Assembly (NCBI GenBank): GCA_027858915.1
Contig: JAQIBT010000111.1
Span: 1-64,000, forward strand
Direction of reading: 5' to 3'
Length of the DNA stretch: 64,000 nt
From: Salinisphaera sp.
Lineage (GTDB): Bacteria; Pseudomonadota; Gammaproteobacteria; Nevskiales; Salinisphaeraceae
Shown: one piece after another, positions 732 to 45,159 of the stretch
Layout: the number at the start of each line of letters is the position of its first letter
Numbering within the stretch: position 1 is the stretch's first letter
Position numbers and translations under genes: made by a program
The notes under the pieces: model-generated
The model's database searches: none
Told to the model about the DNA's origin: nothing
Seen by the model: only the letters and a program-made list of their open reading frames with translations

Positions 732-1106
732 TGTGGCCGCCTCGACCGCCTGTGTTGCCGCCCTTCGAGTATCGACGCTTGCCTGTCGGCAAGCCGGCCG
801 TTCGTGCGGATTGCTGGATGAGATTCAAGACCCAGAGTACGGCTGCCATGGATCGTGGCCGACGTCTTCCAAGCATCACCGCAAGCGACAGTGATCTCTC
901 CTAGTGAAGCTAGAGGCCGCCACCGAATGTGTCTGTACGCCATCGCACGTAACGACTGCAACCTGCGTCATTTCCGACGCGCTGACAGCCTCAGGTCAGC
1001 TTGACTTGCGGCGCGCGCCCGTGCTTCGATTAAATTGCACGCGGGACTCGGTGAGACCAGCGCACGGATCTGGTTCTCTGCCGTTACAGTAAAACCAGTC
1101 ATTGGC

Positions 1107-1238
1107 ATGTCAGAAACACATCATCTCACGGTGCTCAAACGGCCCCGACTCGAGCAGTTGAGCTGCGAATGCTATGCGGTGGTCAAGAAGGAAACCGACC
1201 GTCTGCTGCCCTACCTGCCGCCGACGCTACGACGCTAG
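1107..1238 (+). pseudogene. Remnant of a Crp/Fnr-type regulator, C-terminal end only
   Basis: The reading frame gives HLTVLKRPRLEQLSCECYA followed by VVKKETDRLLPYL and a stop. This matches the last 35 or so residues of the intact regulator at 15244-15963 (HITVLDREGLEKRTCECYA, VVKKEYDRLLPDL). Nothing upstream encodes the sensor domain or the helix-turn-helix, so the fragment cannot function as a regulator. It shows that a third copy of this gene family once lay here. The 14-bp palindrome that accompanies the intact paralogues lies 67 bases downstream. Confidence 0.75.
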
Positions 1239-1305
1239 ATCGGCAACACGCCCGGGCGATCCGGGCTCGGCACAACGCGGTGGAATATCCTGCGCGCTGG
1301 CATGT

Positions 1306-1319
1306 GTGCGCTAGCGCAC
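1306..1319. promoter_or_regulatory. Perfect 14-bp palindrome GTGCGCTAGCGCAC, putative operator
   Basis: This is the best copy of a palindrome found six times in intergenic DNA of this window (also 14163, 15223, 23415, 31123 and 57580). It touches the -35 element of the promoter-like pair that would drive the RNA at about 1354-1469. A dimeric regulator is expected for such symmetry. The Crp-like proteins encoded at 14.4-16 kb are the obvious candidates, by inference only. Confidence 0.5.
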
Positions 1320-1347
1320 TGAACAGCCGGCACAGGGCGCGCATAAT
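1319..1347 (+). promoter_or_regulatory. Sigma70-like promoter for the candidate small RNA
   Basis: CTGAAC (1319-1324) and CATAAT (1342-1347) are separated by exactly 17 bases. The -10 matches TATAAT at five of six positions; the -35 matches at three of six. A start near 1353-1355 would begin the RNA right at its closing stem. Confidence 0.45.
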
Positions 1348-1353
1348 GCCATG

Positions 1354-1469
1354 ACACTGGATTCGCGGTACCTCCCCCTCCAGCAACAGCCGCCTCGTTC
1401 CCCGAGGCCATTGCTCAGCGCGGATCCAGTCTTTACCCGTTGGCGCCCCCTCGCCAACGGGTCGTTTTG
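1354..1469 (+). ncRNA. Candidate structured small RNA, about 115 nt
   Basis: A 12-bp closing stem pairs ACTGGATTCGCG (1356-1367) with CGCGGATCCAGT (1419-1430), with one G-T wobble. Inside it, AGCAA (1382-1386) can pair with TTGCT (1411-1415) and GCCTCG (1392-1397) with CGAGGC (1403-1408). The single-stranded left part contains CCTCCCCCTCC (1371-1381), which could base-pair with Shine-Dalgarno sequences. A strong terminator hairpin follows at 1436-1469, and a promoter with 17-bp spacing and a palindromic operator precede it. I recognise no known RNA family. The alternative is chance structure in GC-rich DNA, but promoter, closed fold and terminator in register make that less likely. Confidence 0.5.
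1436..1469 (+). terminator. Rho-independent terminator
   Basis: CCCGTTGGCG (1436-1445) and CGCCAACGGG (1452-1461) form a perfect 10-bp stem around a 6-base loop, followed by TCGTTTTG. No protein gene ends just upstream, so it most likely ends the small transcript. Confidence 0.75.
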
Positions 1470-13991: not shown

Positions 13992-14265
13992 TTCAATCTC
14001 CGCGGTACCAGCGTTTGAGCGTCGCCGAATCACGGCGATGACCGACCGCGCTGCTCGCGCGCCGTCAGCAGGATGTGGATCGATTCCGGATCGACGCATC
14101 GCCTCGTAGCCGATCACGGCGACTTACGGTGCTAGTTCTACCGCACCGCCAGCTTGTCATCTGTGCGCTAGACCACGGACACGCAAAAGGGGAGCCGTTG
14201 CCCACGCGCCCGGCGGCAGAGCGATGCTCGTAAGTGTCTGCCGAAGCTCTGCTACCGCAGCCTGT
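13992..14265. other. Upstream region of the phosphoketolase operon
   Basis: No intact gene. The region contains one copy of the recurrent palindrome at 14163-14176, about 170 bases upstream of xfp. No clear -35/-10 pair could be fixed. It adjoins the transketolase fragment that starts at 14266. Confidence 0.4.
14163..14176. promoter_or_regulatory. Palindrome copy GTGCGCTAGACCAC upstream of xfp
   Basis: Matches the 14-bp palindrome at 12 positions. On the reverse strand the similarity to the copies at 23.4 and 31.1 kb extends outward: GTCCGT, three bases, then CTAGCGCACAGA. The position upstream of xfp suggests regulation of the phosphoketolase/H+-ATPase operon. Confidence 0.45.
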
Positions 14266-14393: not shown

Positions 14394-15149
14394 CTACAGC
14401 GTCGTCTCGATCGAATGCACGCGGGCCAGACGCTGTCGAGCGCGACGCCGCGCCGGCAGCTCGAGAACTTCGGCATAGCTCTTTCGATCCGCCGCGTAGC
14501 AGTCGCATGCTGCCGACTCGAGGCCGGCCCGATCGAGCACCGTCACTTTGCCGCGGCGGTATTCGATATGCCGGGTGCGCTGCAACTCGATCGCGGCCCG
14601 GGTGACGCCGACGCGGCGCACACCGAGCATGTAGGCGAGAAATTCATGCGTGACGCGAAACTGATTGGCATGGGCACGGTCTTGAGTCATCAGCAGCCAT
14701 CGGGCCAGCCGTGGGCCGATTTCGTGATACCGCAAGCACGCTGCCGAGCCGGCCTGCTGCTGCATCAGCACATAGGTGTAGCGGCCCAGCGCCTTGTGCA
14801 AGGGTGCGCTGCGCGCCAGCTCGCGCTTGAACGTGCTCGCTCGAACGCGCCAGCCCGAGCCTGACCCCTGGACCACGGCATGCACCGGAGCGGCCATCAC
14901 GCCCAAAGCGAGTTGCACGCCGAGCATGCCTTCGCGCCCCACCATGCCGACCTCAAGGGCGACCTTGCCGTCGATCTGGGTCAACAGCGAAATGAAGCCG
15001 TCGACTGGAAAATACACATATCGCGTTCGTTCTCCGGGCTCGCACAACACGTCGGCGAAGACAAGATTGATCGGCTCGCACACGGCGAGCAGGTGCCGGC
15101 GTTCCTTGCGCGGGAGGAACTCGATGAGATAGTTCTGGGTGTTGGACAT
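14394..15149 (-). CDS. Crp/Fnr family transcriptional regulator (first of a tandem pair)
   Basis: A 251-residue protein with an N-terminal cyclic-nucleotide-binding-like barrel (YVYFPVDGFISLLTQIDG near residue 44, EVGMVGREGMLGV near 67) and a C-terminal winged helix (HEFLAYMLGVRRVGVTRAAI near 167). There is no N-terminal cysteine cluster, so it is not an oxygen-sensing FNR. The glycine/glutamate/arginine pocket for cAMP is not evident, so the ligand is unknown. ATG at 15149. It is a paralogue of the next gene upstream, read in the same direction with a 94-bp gap that contains a copy of the recurrent palindrome, which suggests auto- or cross-regulation. Confidence 0.9.
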   Translation of the reverse strand: MSNTQNYLIEFLPRKERRHLLAVCEPINLVFADVLCEPGERTRYVYFPVDGFISLLTQIDGKVALEVGMVGREGMLGVQLALGVMAAPVHAVVQGSGSGWRVRASTFKRELARSAPLHKALGRYTYVLMQQQAGSAACLRYHEIGPRLARWLLMTQDRAHANQFRVTHEFLAYMLGVRRVGVTRAAIELQRTRHIEYRRGKVTVLDRAGLESAACDCYAADRKSYAEVLELPARRRARQRLARVHSIETTL

Positions 15150-15222
15150 GGGCTCTCACCGGCGTTCCCGATGCGAAAGGCGGATGATCAACCGAGTATG
15201 GTCAAGTCCCAGGCTCCGGACT

Positions 15223-15243: not shown

Positions 15244-15963
15244 TCAAGTCGCCTGGAGATCCGGAAGCAGGCGATCGTATTCCTTCTTCACGACCGCATA
15301 GCATTCACACGTGCGCTTTTCCAGTCCCTCGCGGTCCAGCACCGTGATGTGGCCCCGCGCATAGCGGATCAAGCCGGCCGTCTGCAGCTTGAGCGCGCTT
15401 CCGGTCACACCCTCACGTCGCACGCCGAGCATGTTGGCGATGAGTTCCTGGGTCATCACGAGCTCGTTGGCGTGCAGGCGATCCAGGCTCAGCAGCAGCC
15501 AGCGGCAGAGTTGCTGATCGAGGGTGTGGTGCCGGTTGCAGACCGCCGTCTGCGACATTTGCGTAATCAGCGCCTGTGTGTAGCGGAGCAACACGTGCAT
15601 GACGGGGGCTGAGCGGTTGAACTCATCCTTGATCACGCTGGCCGGGAGGCGAAACCCCTGCCCTGCGCTTTGCACAACGGCGCGACTCGGCGTCGACTCT
15701 CCGCCCATGAAGAGGGAAATGCCAACCGCGCCTTCGTTGCCCACCACCGCGATCTCGGCTGATGCGCCGCTTTCCATGACATAGAGCAGGGAGACGATTG
15801 CCGTCGTCGGAAAGTAAAGGTGCGTCTGCTGCGTGCCCGACTCGTAGAGCACTTCGCCGAGGGGCATCTTGATCCACTCCAGCTGGGCACACCAACGCGT
15901 CCATTCGGCCTCGGGAAGCGCCGCGAGCAGGTGGTTGGACTTGGGCTCATGGCCGATCGGCAT
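15244..15963 (-). CDS. Crp/Fnr family transcriptional regulator (second of a tandem pair)
   Basis: A 239-residue paralogue of its neighbour: effector barrel (TQQTHLYFPTTAIVSLLYVM near residue 45, EIAVVGNEGAVGISLF near 70) and winged helix (QELIANMLGVRREGVTGSAL near 175). It ends in CECYAVVKKEYDRLLPDL, the segment preserved in the remnant at 1107-1238. The ATG at 15963 follows GGAG; upstream in-frame codons have no similarity. It lacks FNR-type cysteines. Its ligand and targets are unknown. The palindrome shared by xfp, GH94/tkt and the small RNA makes this pair the leading candidates for control of the carbon genes (inference). Confidence 0.9.
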   Translation of the reverse strand: MPIGHEPKSNHLLAALPEAEWTRWCAQLEWIKMPLGEVLYESGTQQTHLYFPTTAIVSLLYVMESGASAEIAVVGNEGAVGISLFMGGESTPSRAVVQSAGQGFRLPASVIKDEFNRSAPVMHVLLRYTQALITQMSQTAVCNRHHTLDQQLCRWLLLSLDRLHANELVMTQELIANMLGVRREGVTGSALKLQTAGLIRYARGHITVLDREGLEKRTCECYAVVKKEYDRLLPDLQAT

Positions 15964-16220
15964 GGGATTCTCCAGCGAGCGCGGCCCCGTAGAAAACCGG
16001 ATCAAGCATTGAAGCTCAGCGCTAGGGGTACACGATAAATGGTTTGCCGTATGTGTGACAGCGCACCGACGACAGGGGCCCGAAGCGTACATCTCGTTAG
16101 AGCCATAAACTACGCAACTCTTATTGCGGACAACTACGTGCGATCCCGCGAATCACAAGACTCTATAACAAAGCCCACCTTACCCAATGCCGCAGCGAAT
16201 CGTCTCGTCGGGACCTCGTC

Positions 16221-23274: not shown

Positions 23275-23414
23275 AAGGCCACCTCTGGCGTGAAACGGTG
23301 GGAGTGCGTCGTTGGCTAGCATCGACGCCGGGCATTCGTGATGGCGCGCGAACCGCGGATCGGAAAACAGCGCTATCCATCGCCAAACTCTGGGCCGGCG
23401 CCACCGCCGCGTCC

Positions 23415-42537: not shown

Positions 42538-43935
42538 TTACTCATGATGGACTCCCCCATGATGGAACCCCGGTTTTGCAGTGGAGTTCGGCACCGGGTT
42601 CTTCGACAGGTGCTCAATCGCGCGTTTGATGTCATCCAGAAGAAGTTGCACCAGATCGCGACTGACTCCGTGGCGAATCAGGATGCGTTGCACAACGGTT
42701 TCCTGGCGGTTCGACGGTAGCGGATAGGACGCGATCTGCCATCCACGCATCCGCACCCGTTCCGACAGGTCATAGAGCGTGAAGCCGTGATCGACGTCGG
42801 TCAGCTTGTAGGCGACCGCGGGCAGACCGCCGTGGCCGTCATAGACCATTTCGAAACGCTCGATCTCTGCCAGCTGTTCACCCAGCCAGTGGGCCGTATC
42901 GGAACAGGCTTGCTGGACTGCCGTATACCCTTCCCGACCGAGGCGCAGAAAATTGTAGTATTGCGCGATGATCTCGCCACCGGGTCGCGAGAAGTTCAGC
43001 GCAAAAGTGGGCATGTTGCCGCCCAGATAATCCACATAGAAAATCAGCTCTTCGGGTAGATCTTCCTTCGATGCCCAGATCACCCAACCCACACCGAGGG
43101 GGGCGAGGCCGTATTTGTGGCCGGAGGCGTTGATCGACCGGACCCGCTCGATCTGGAAATCCCAGGCCAGGTCGCGCTGAATGAATGGCGCGATGAACCC
43201 CCCCGAGGCAGCATCGACATGGATCGGAATATCAAGCCCGAGATCGCGCTCCATCGCGTCCAGCTCACCCGCCAAAGCCTCTACAGGTTCGTAAATACCA
43301 GTGAAGGTGACACCCAGCGTCGCCACCACACCGATCGTGTTTTCGTCGCAGTATTGGCGCAGGTCTTCGGGCTTCAATCCAAGGGCGTCGCCTTCCAGCG
43401 GCACCTCGCGGATCTCGACATCGAAATAGCGGGCAAATTTCTTCCAGCAGATCTGCACGGGGCCGGTCACGATATTCGGCTTGCTCGTATCCTTGCCATC
43501 GGCTTCCCGGCGCTTGCGCCACTGCCACTTGAAAGCAAGACCGCCCAGCATGGCCGCTTCGCTTGACCCGGTGGTCGAGCAGCCCACCGTCTCCCATGAT
43601 TTCTGGGCGTGCCAGAGGTCGGCAAGAATGTGTACGCAGCGGTTCTCAAGCTCGGCGGTCTGGGGATATTCGTCCTTGTCGATCATGTTCTTGTAGACCG
43701 CATCCGCCATCAACTGCTTGACCTCATCCTCCACCCAGGTCGTACAGAACGTGGCGAGGTTCTGACGGGCATTCCCGTCCAACAGAAGCTCATCGCGGAT
43801 GAGGGCATAGGCGGCACGCGGCTCGGTGGGGCCTTTCGGCAACCGAAACTTTGGCAGATTGTCTGCCGGGGCATTCGTTGCATAAATGTCTCGCAGACTG
43901 GATTGGTCATTCAAATCAACGCGATGGATGGGCAT
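42538..43935 (-). CDS. gadB: Glutamate decarboxylase
   Basis: A 465-residue PLP enzyme that converts glutamate to GABA while consuming a proton, a classic acid-resistance reaction. It has YPQTAELENRCVHILADLWH, GCSTTGSSEAAMLGGLAFKW (near residue 124), HVDAASGGFIAPF (near 240) and the PLP-Lys motif INASGHKYGLAPLGVGW (near 270). The C-terminus is His-rich (GFHHGGVHHE); in E. coli GadB a C-terminal His closes the site at neutral pH. I chose the ATG at 43935, which has AAGAG nine bases upstream; an ATG three codons earlier lacks room for a ribosome site. No GadC-type antiporter is adjacent; the antiporter at 50.9 kb is closer to arginine systems. Confidence 0.96.
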   Translation of the reverse strand: MPIHRVDLNDQSSLRDIYATNAPADNLPKFRLPKGPTEPRAAYALIRDELLLDGNARQNLATFCTTWVEDEVKQLMADAVYKNMIDKDEYPQTAELENRCVHILADLWHAQKSWETVGCSTTGSSEAAMLGGLAFKWQWRKRREADGKDTSKPNIVTGPVQICWKKFARYFDVEIREVPLEGDALGLKPEDLRQYCDENTIGVVATLGVTFTGIYEPVEALAGELDAMERDLGLDIPIHVDAASGGFIAPFIQRDLAWDFQIERVRSINASGHKYGLAPLGVGWVIWASKEDLPEELIFYVDYLGGNMPTFALNFSRPGGEIIAQYYNFLRLGREGYTAVQQACSDTAHWLGEQLAEIERFEMVYDGHGGLPAVAYKLTDVDHGFTLYDLSERVRMRGWQIASYPLPSNRQETVVQRILIRHGVSRDLVQLLLDDIKRAIEHLSKNPVPNSTAKPGFHHGGVHHE

Positions 43936-44119
43936 TCTGAACATCTCTTTAGGGTCGTTTTGTAGTGCCTCGATCGGCGCCTGCTGGTTCTCAGATGGGC
44001 ACCTGTCGCATGCCCACCCTGGTACTGAGTTACACCGAACAGACTGGCCCCGATCAGAGCCAGCTAATAGACGGATGGGTCGGACGACAGTCAGCAGATC
44101 GACGTCGCGTCGCTGTTCA
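43936..44119. other. gadB upstream region
   Basis: No gene; it presumably holds the gadB promoter. No FNR box or recurrent palindrome was found. Confidence 0.3.
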
Positions 44120-44459: not shown

Positions 44460-45159
44460 AATTTTTCTCGGGCTCTGTTCGCTGCCACACGTTAGGTCGA
44501 CCCTTCGCGCTCAATCAGCGACCGTGCGGCGGCGAACGCCCACGGGGCTTCCCGGAATGCGTTCCGTGCCAACGTCACCTGCGCGCCGGTTACTTTGGGC
44601 CTGCGGACGTACGGTATCGATCAGCGCAGGCCGCGCCGAAAACAAAACGACACGGGCTGAGTTGTCTTAGCCGATGTGGCCGATCTCATCCTCGCGATCA
44701 TATTGGCCCATGACGACCGGATCGGAAGCGCGGGCATGGCGAGTCATGGTATCCGCCAGAATGGGCACCGCCTGCGGGTTCGGCTGATCGCGCCGGTGGT
44801 GTGCCGCCTGACGCCGTGGACATGCCGCCTATGTGGCCAATTCCGCTATCAATGCGGCGTTGCGTTATCGTGCTTTTTTGCCGGCTTTCTCATCAGTCAG
44901 CCGCCATTGCACTTGTCGGTCTATCTGTCGGCCGGACGCAGCATCTCAGGGTATAAGCTGATTACATCGGCGTCGCAGACGTAGCCGAGCGCACTCGCGG
45001 TGTGGATCGTCGACCGCATCCACCAGAATACGGACGTCGCCCATTGCGATCTTGCTGGAACCAGACGCGCTATCGCATGACAGTTATTTCGATTCATGCT
45101 GATACCCCACAGCCTGACATCATGTCGGCGAGTTCCTCGATGATCCCGGCCTGCCGGTT
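44460..45159. other. Gene-poor interval between the SHOCT gene and arcC
   Basis: No gene is recognised in 700 bases. Two reverse-strand stretches look protein-like without a start: one ending ARASDPVVMGQYDREDEIGH before a stop at about 44670, and one around 44520-44610 reading NAFREAPWAFAAARSLIERE. They may be remnants, but I cannot name a family. No operator motif stands out. Confidence 0.4.

Follow-up and report, generated by a model that had tools for sequence, protein, structure and literature searches.

A probable family of structured small RNAs with a Crp-type operator in Salinisphaera and scattered other proteobacteria

FnrS of E. coli and AniS of Neisseria are small RNAs activated by FNR, and the CcsR or 'cuckoo' RNAs of Rhodobacter are multi-copy, C-rich small RNAs. 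Another RNA, sX13, has three stem-loops with 4C/5C loops, is always located downstream of polA, and uses its C-rich loops to repress mRNAs via G-rich sites near start codons without Hfq (PMC3771888). We analysed a 64,000-nucleotide stretch of Salinisphaera DNA (the whole stretch is hereafter the window), in which the segment 1305–1469 on the forward strand is likely the gene of a small regulatory RNA; copies sharing its fold and its kind of operator occur in scattered other proteobacteria. Like sX13 of Xanthomonadaceae (115-position model), this RNA is heavily structured, with C-rich loops and an intrinsic terminator, but it is built as one closing stem with nested stems and is often found beside crp genes. 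It would share with FnrS and AniS control by an activator of the Crp/Fnr family, as we propose here, but differs from them in its operator (GTGCG-N4-CGCAC), in its regulators and in having no Rfam match at gathering score. C-rich loops and tandem or multiple copies are features in common with the CcsR/'cuckoo' RNAs and with Burkholderia anti-hemB (RF02837), although the window has no RF02837 match at gathering score.

No family in Rfam 15 matched the window at gathering score, consistent with the new RNA put forward in an earlier note on this DNA. A lax scan of 1200–1600 returned two weak matches, the better of them to sX13 (RF02232; 17.2 bits and E 0.49, compared to the 50 bits of the gathering score required for membership), and an sX13 match at E 0.5 was found in none of the 14 other member loci, which hold 15 copies. 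Neither the polA context nor the three stem-loops of sX13 were found: the neighbours identified were crpA/crpB, PRC-barrel/OmpA-like, Ysc84 and DUF883 genes, and the topology differs. As judged by these comparisons, the RNA is one that would work like sX13 and is placed like the FNR-activated small RNAs, yet it falls outside sX13 and outside all Rfam families at gathering score. Among the titles and abstract openings listed from the open-access literature, none described the RNA or its link to crpA/crpB. In another genome of the same order, two tandem RNAs (L030, 1273–1367 and 1477–1573) scored near anti-hemB RF02837 (45.4 and 39.1 bits; gathering score 49.5); this pair, probably a distant branch of the anti-hemB family, was rejected from the family described here as anti-hemB-like. 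A weak Rfam match to sX6 was also noted in L066, 11 kb from the RNA.

The earlier note had described, from the letters alone, a perfect palindrome, a promoter, a closed fold with a 12-bp closing stem and two nested stems, a terminator hairpin and a large unpaired part with an anti-Shine–Dalgarno-like sequence, all lying between decayed genes, and nearly all of this was recovered (Table 1). The palindrome GTGCGCTAGCGCAC is present, folding gave the closing stem at the positions stated there together with two nested stems, and the large unpaired part does hold CCTCCCCCTCC. The terminator stem has 11 pairs rather than 10, and of the claimed −35/−10 pair the hexamers TGAACA and CATAAT stood, whereas the 17-bp spacer proved one base off (16 in the register of our tool). 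The window RNA folds at −51.9 kcal/mol, compared to −32.4 ± 3.45 kcal/mol for 200 dinucleotide shuffles (z −5.65), none of which folded as well. Between 700 and 2200 there are two promoter-like sites versus 0.5 in shuffles, and two terminator-like sites versus 1.3, which is unremarkable as a count. Taken together, 1305–1469 would constitute the entire gene of a trans-acting small RNA of ~116 nt, in which a closed stem holds open C-rich segments and transcription would end at the intrinsic terminator.

Table 1. Coordinates of the candidate small RNA gene and of related features in the window
Feature	Position	Strand	Details
Palindrome GTGCGCTAGCGCAC	1306–1319		perfect, 14 bp
Operator TGTGCGCTAGCGCACT	1305–1320	+	20.1 bits; centre 41.5 bp before the predicted transcription start (~1354)
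−10-like hexamer CATAAT	1342–1347	+	starts 22 bp after the right half-site
Putative small RNA, ~116 nt	1354–1469	+	5′ end placed from the −10 box; fold z and 16-member family with compensatory changes
Closing stem, 12 pairs	1356–1367 with 1419–1430	+	fold and 16-copy alignment
Open C-rich segment CCTCCCCCTCC = CCUCCCCCUCC	1371–1381	+	proposed seed against Shine–Dalgarno sequences
Two nested stems	1382–1415 (1382–1386/1411–1415 and 1392–1397/1403–1408)	+	C-rich apical loop UUCCC
Intrinsic terminator	1435–1469	+	11-pair stem 1435–1445/1452–1462, then CGTTTTG and U-rich tail; consensus scan
crpA remnant	1108–1238	+	first codons fused to the last ~38 codons; ~590 bp gone
Second operator-like site	934–949	+	before the crpA remnant; 17.1 bits
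CrpA-like regulator	15244–16092	−	71% identical to the C157 copy; true start probably near 15966; operator-like site at 16052, 15.2 bits
CrpB-like regulator, HTH_Crp_2 domain	14394–15149	−	operator-like site at 15222, 11.97 bits

Covariance-model searches from this one starting sequence brought the total to 16 copies in 12 genomes, that is, the window copy and 15 copies in 11 other genomes. A single-sequence model found L027, L028 and L029 in 85 genomes of the order (E 7e-6 to 2e-4). A four-sequence model, run on 369 genomes of the class, then gave two tandem copies in L031 and a single one in L032, and it gave one copy, L066, among 80 named CrpA-relative loci; an eight-sequence model added eight copies in the order (L114, L131, L137, L115, L132, L116, L118 and L120; 36.9–61.5 bits). 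L066 is in a Gammaproteobacteria MAG that was taken as the same genome as G174 because the coordinates are equal, and in L118 the contig ends within the 3′ tail of the copy. Of the 85 genomes of the order, 21 had a match of some kind at E 0.01, and after the exclusions given below nine of them hold 12 copies (three in one genome, two in another). A full-length copy occurs in four of the 369 class genomes, the own genome included, with a 66-nt match in a fifth (L141), and at 1e-6 the own genome was the sole match in the phylum sample (1/398); such large searches score just the best first-pass candidates, and copies may be missed. The other 13 genomes of the genus, searched by model, lack a full-length copy. 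At the DNA level one of 61 genomes matched, the own one, and plasmids gave no match. Inspection by eye of the regions downstream of crpB in 26 loci revealed no copy beyond those found by the models.

Final selection drew on 24 of 26 loci (L135 and L136, which overlap L124 and L117, were left out) plus seven earlier ones; scores, lengths and operators were all known when 16 of the 35 matches were retained and 19 discarded. The kept copies have operator scores of 10–13/14. Those dropped were 16 matches shorter than 100 nt, which by eye are mainly terminator (L124 counted on both strands; operators of 7–9/14 in the 15 that were scored), L138 (119 nt, 29.4 bits, operator 8/14) and opposite-strand matches in L117 and L006. 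A hit of the single-sequence model within the genus, L007, was rejected because by eye it lies inside a protein gene.

Judging from the aligned copies, the structure is kept through compensatory changes across all 16, the outcome in related genomes on which the earlier note had made its proposal depend. In the 16-copy alignment, 28 of 34 pairs have changed on both sides, a figure reached by none of 500 shuffles, doubly changed cells number 94 compared to 31.5 in shuffles, and 88.9% of cells are paired compared to 28–45% in slid controls, while an eight-copy alignment has both-side changes in 26 of the 34 pairs; both are covariance-model alignments fitted to the structure and hence biased towards it, and the members were chosen by models of the same structure, the final cut being made with operators already in view. 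By helix, 86% of cells are paired in the closing stem (both-side changes in 9/12 pairs), 82% and 86% in nested helices 2 and 3, and 97% in terminator helix 4. An alignment made from sequence only with MAFFT gave 19 pairs, 17 of them with double changes, and recovered the closing stem and the terminator, the two nested stems being absent from it. Individually, the 16 copies fold with z of −3.2 to −7.9 (mean ~−4.9); in another run L029 reached a z of only −2.79, with 2/200 shuffles equally good.

An operator-like match (7–10/10 to GTGCG-N4-CGCAC, within 100 nt) precedes each of the 16 copies, 28–50 nt before its model start, and the homologue searches made no use of promoter sequence. Its shuffle p is below 0.03 in 14 of the 16 copies and weaker in L028 (0.10) and L118 (0.06); taking copies as independent, the combined p is 3e-9 for the eight copies found last and 5e-16 for the 15 non-window copies. 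Counting from where the right half-site ends, the average similarity to TATAAT across the 16 copies is highest at offset 22 (3.19/6), with offset 20 second (2.56) among offsets 0–37. This fixed offset of a −10-like box places the operator centre at −41.5, the position that defines class II promoters of Crp/Fnr activators. Over the 16 copies we thus find a two-fold symmetric site near −41.5 together with a −10 box, as in Crp/Fnr class II promoters, the transcription start being the one predicted from the box. We infer that a Crp/Fnr-type activator of the CrpA/CrpB kind would bind TGTGCG-NTAN-CGCACA centred at about −41.5 and there activate, rather than repress, transcription of the RNA from a class II start.

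With a weight matrix built from the 15 non-window operators, the RNA operator ranks first among all sites in the window, and at a threshold of 12 the window has 12 sites, whereas 20 shuffles preserving composition in 300-base blocks gave 1.35 on average and 3 at most. They include those before the crpA remnant (934), the intact crpA (16052), phosphoketolase (14162), tkt/GH94 (23414) and usp/gnd (31122), while several fall within genes (26761, 60712); the crpB site at 15222, scoring 11.97 bits, narrowly misses the threshold. Control of phosphoketolase, tkt/GH94 and the Crp-like genes through a shared palindrome, as the earlier note had suggested, thereby gains sequence-level support from the sites at 14162, 23414, 16052 and 15222, scored with a motif trained without the window. 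The strict palindrome was not over-represented, neither in the window with two mismatches (10 versus 7.85 expected) nor in the whole genome with one (27 sites per strand versus 57 in the reversed control). The 16-bp sites at 23414 (tkt–GH94 gap) and 31122 (gap between a stress-protein gene and gnd; gene names by reading) are identical (CGTCTGCTAGCGCACA). Three further operator-like sites, at 44476, 44523 and 44608 (14.4, 12.3 and 11.6 bits), lie within 150 bp of one another, some 530–680 bp upstream of a decarboxylase-like gene (42538–43944).

Upstream of named crpA genes the motif was present in 42 of 79 loci (the 80th had too little upstream DNA), compared to 39 of 1313 segments taken at random, a sign of self-regulation by CrpA. 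In these loci (L034–L113) it lies within 220 bp of crpA, for example in Pseudomonas, Nitrosomonas and Rheinheimera. Because such sites are enriched upstream of crpA and linked to crpA/crpB, CrpA, CrpB or both are the most likely proteins to bind the motif, as predicted from the distribution of these sites. A domain scan found HTH_Crp_2 in both CrpA and CrpB, a little-studied pair, and all five CrpA/CrpB proteins that were scanned scored below the cut-offs of the NCBIfam models. The window also encodes an FNR-like protein, but the FNR site, TTGAT-N4-ATCAA, is unlike the window operator.

Comparison of the loci links the RNA to crpA/crpB. In 7 of the 16 copies (L028, L032, L066, L114, L115, L118 and L137) crpB lies directly upstream on the same strand; L131 has crpA as its divergent neighbour, and the window has a crpA remnant. 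Among the other copies, apart from L116 and the L031 pair, whose neighbours were left unscanned, the RNA adjoins a PRC-barrel gene and, by eye, an OmpA-like gene (L027), Ysc84 (L029 and, by sequence likeness, L120) or DUF883/holin-like genes (L132). Since just 1 of the 80 named crpA loci (L066) has it, the RNA appears to be an occasional partner of CrpA/CrpB. The decayed genes to either side of the window copy, seen as such in the earlier note, are, on the left, a crp-like remnant with an internal deletion (87% identity over CrpA residues 205–242 by tblastn) and, on the right, at 1854–1962, DNA with weak similarity (68% over 109 nt, E 9e-5) to the 5′ region of a DUF1003-like gene; a suspected PRC-barrel remnant at 1801 was not confirmed by sequence search. 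By blastn, 813–1341 is a decayed copy of a locus on another contig of the same genome, C157, which has the order crpA (242 aa, P0001), operator and DUF1003-like gene (named by reading). Between the operator region and the next similarity the window has ~510 bp, including the RNA, and C157 ~25. The C157 operator (L005, ~2550–2570) persists downstream of crpA with one palindrome base changed, but inspection by eye showed no −10 box or RNA after it; this operator may be what remains of a lost RNA copy, or it may drive the DUF1003-like gene. A further crpA fragment is present in the same genome (C44:3343–3495, L011; 80% identity over query residues 6–56). At 1e-20 CrpA had no match in the 13 remaining genomes of the genus, and the region was therefore probably acquired from outside. 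Its remaining genes, by reading of translations, include phosphoketolase, acetate kinase, arginine-deiminase-type genes, universal stress proteins and the FNR-like protein (domain-scanned proteins were the regulators, PPK2 and DUF748), and this gene content suggests a region concerned with survival or fermentation.

In the window RNA, the 6-mers of 1371–1381 have a mean unpaired probability of 0.90–0.96, and at least one open pyrimidine 6-mer with at least four C is present in all 16 copies, weakly so in L132 (0.67, near the 5′ end); accessible C-rich segments within a structured RNA that has its own terminator are thus found throughout. Over the RNA bodies C, U and A are about equally open (0.48, 0.52 and 0.46, respectively). 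Given that the C-rich loops of sX13 act on G-rich start sites, we propose Shine–Dalgarno pairing: by binding G-rich ribosome-binding sites, the C-rich segments would reduce the translation of other mRNAs. In this way the RNA probably blocks the ribosome-binding sites of other messages. Among 34 start regions of the window (some at guessed starts) no convincing target emerged: the best, a P-type ATPase, was equalled by 1.8% of 400 random segments, which is unremarkable among 34. The own genome has 18 sites GAGGGGG-N3-12-ATG, of mixed quality, compared to eight in the reversed control, and those at plausible starts include sites at flgF-like, lipoprotein-like and CoA-transferase-like genes (names by eye), which are candidates only.

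Could the segment be something other than the gene of an RNA acting on messages? A cis-acting leader or attenuator, its terminator controlling the next gene, would account for a terminator that comes straight after the fold and for the operator-like sites that precede several protein genes near the CrpA/CrpB regulators. However, in L027 and L028 the terminator is followed by a gene that runs on the opposite strand, no intact same-strand gene follows in the window until 2059, and the two tandem L031 copies each have their own operator and terminator, so that we regard a leader as quite unlikely. We hold it to be very unlikely that the transcript is a messenger for a small protein: an ATG at 1351 in the window does open a frame through the whole RNA, and frames of at least 36 codons begin with ATG near the 5′ end in L027, L137 and one L031 copy, but start positions and frames vary between copies, most frames continue past the terminator, L066 and L120 lack any 12-codon frame inside the RNA, and the changes follow base pairing.

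A real small RNA might also act on a protein instead of on mRNAs, as a decoy for CsrA/RsmA or a sponge for Hfq, and its closed, stable fold would suit that role. CsrA decoys need open GGA motifs, however, and these should be rare where most G residues are paired (in the bodies their mean unpaired probability is 0.12), which leaves a decoy unlikely. The decay of the neighbouring genes, together with the paralogous C157 locus that keeps an operator but by eye no −10 box or RNA, would fit a chance fold beside a relic operator in DNA crumbling between pseudogenes; yet 15 relatives have the same fold and kind of operator, and the window copy itself keeps all 12 closing-stem pairs, the operator and the −10 box, making chance highly improbable. 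We favour as the likely reading a new small RNA family activated by CrpA/CrpB at class II promoters and acting by Shine–Dalgarno pairing in the manner of sX13.

Somewhat beyond this, and with about an even chance of being right, CrpA, CrpB and the RNA may form a regulatory module, in which the paralogues would read TGTGCG-NTAN-CGCACA and control themselves and survival/fermentation genes, with the small RNA as a repressing arm in some lineages, sometimes in multiple copies. Motif sites near phosphoketolase, transketolase/GH94, stress-protein and regulator genes make it testable whether one circuit covers much of the region. A small RNA family new to Rfam 15 and with strong covariation would give a widespread pair of Crp-like proteins a concrete operator and a testable output.
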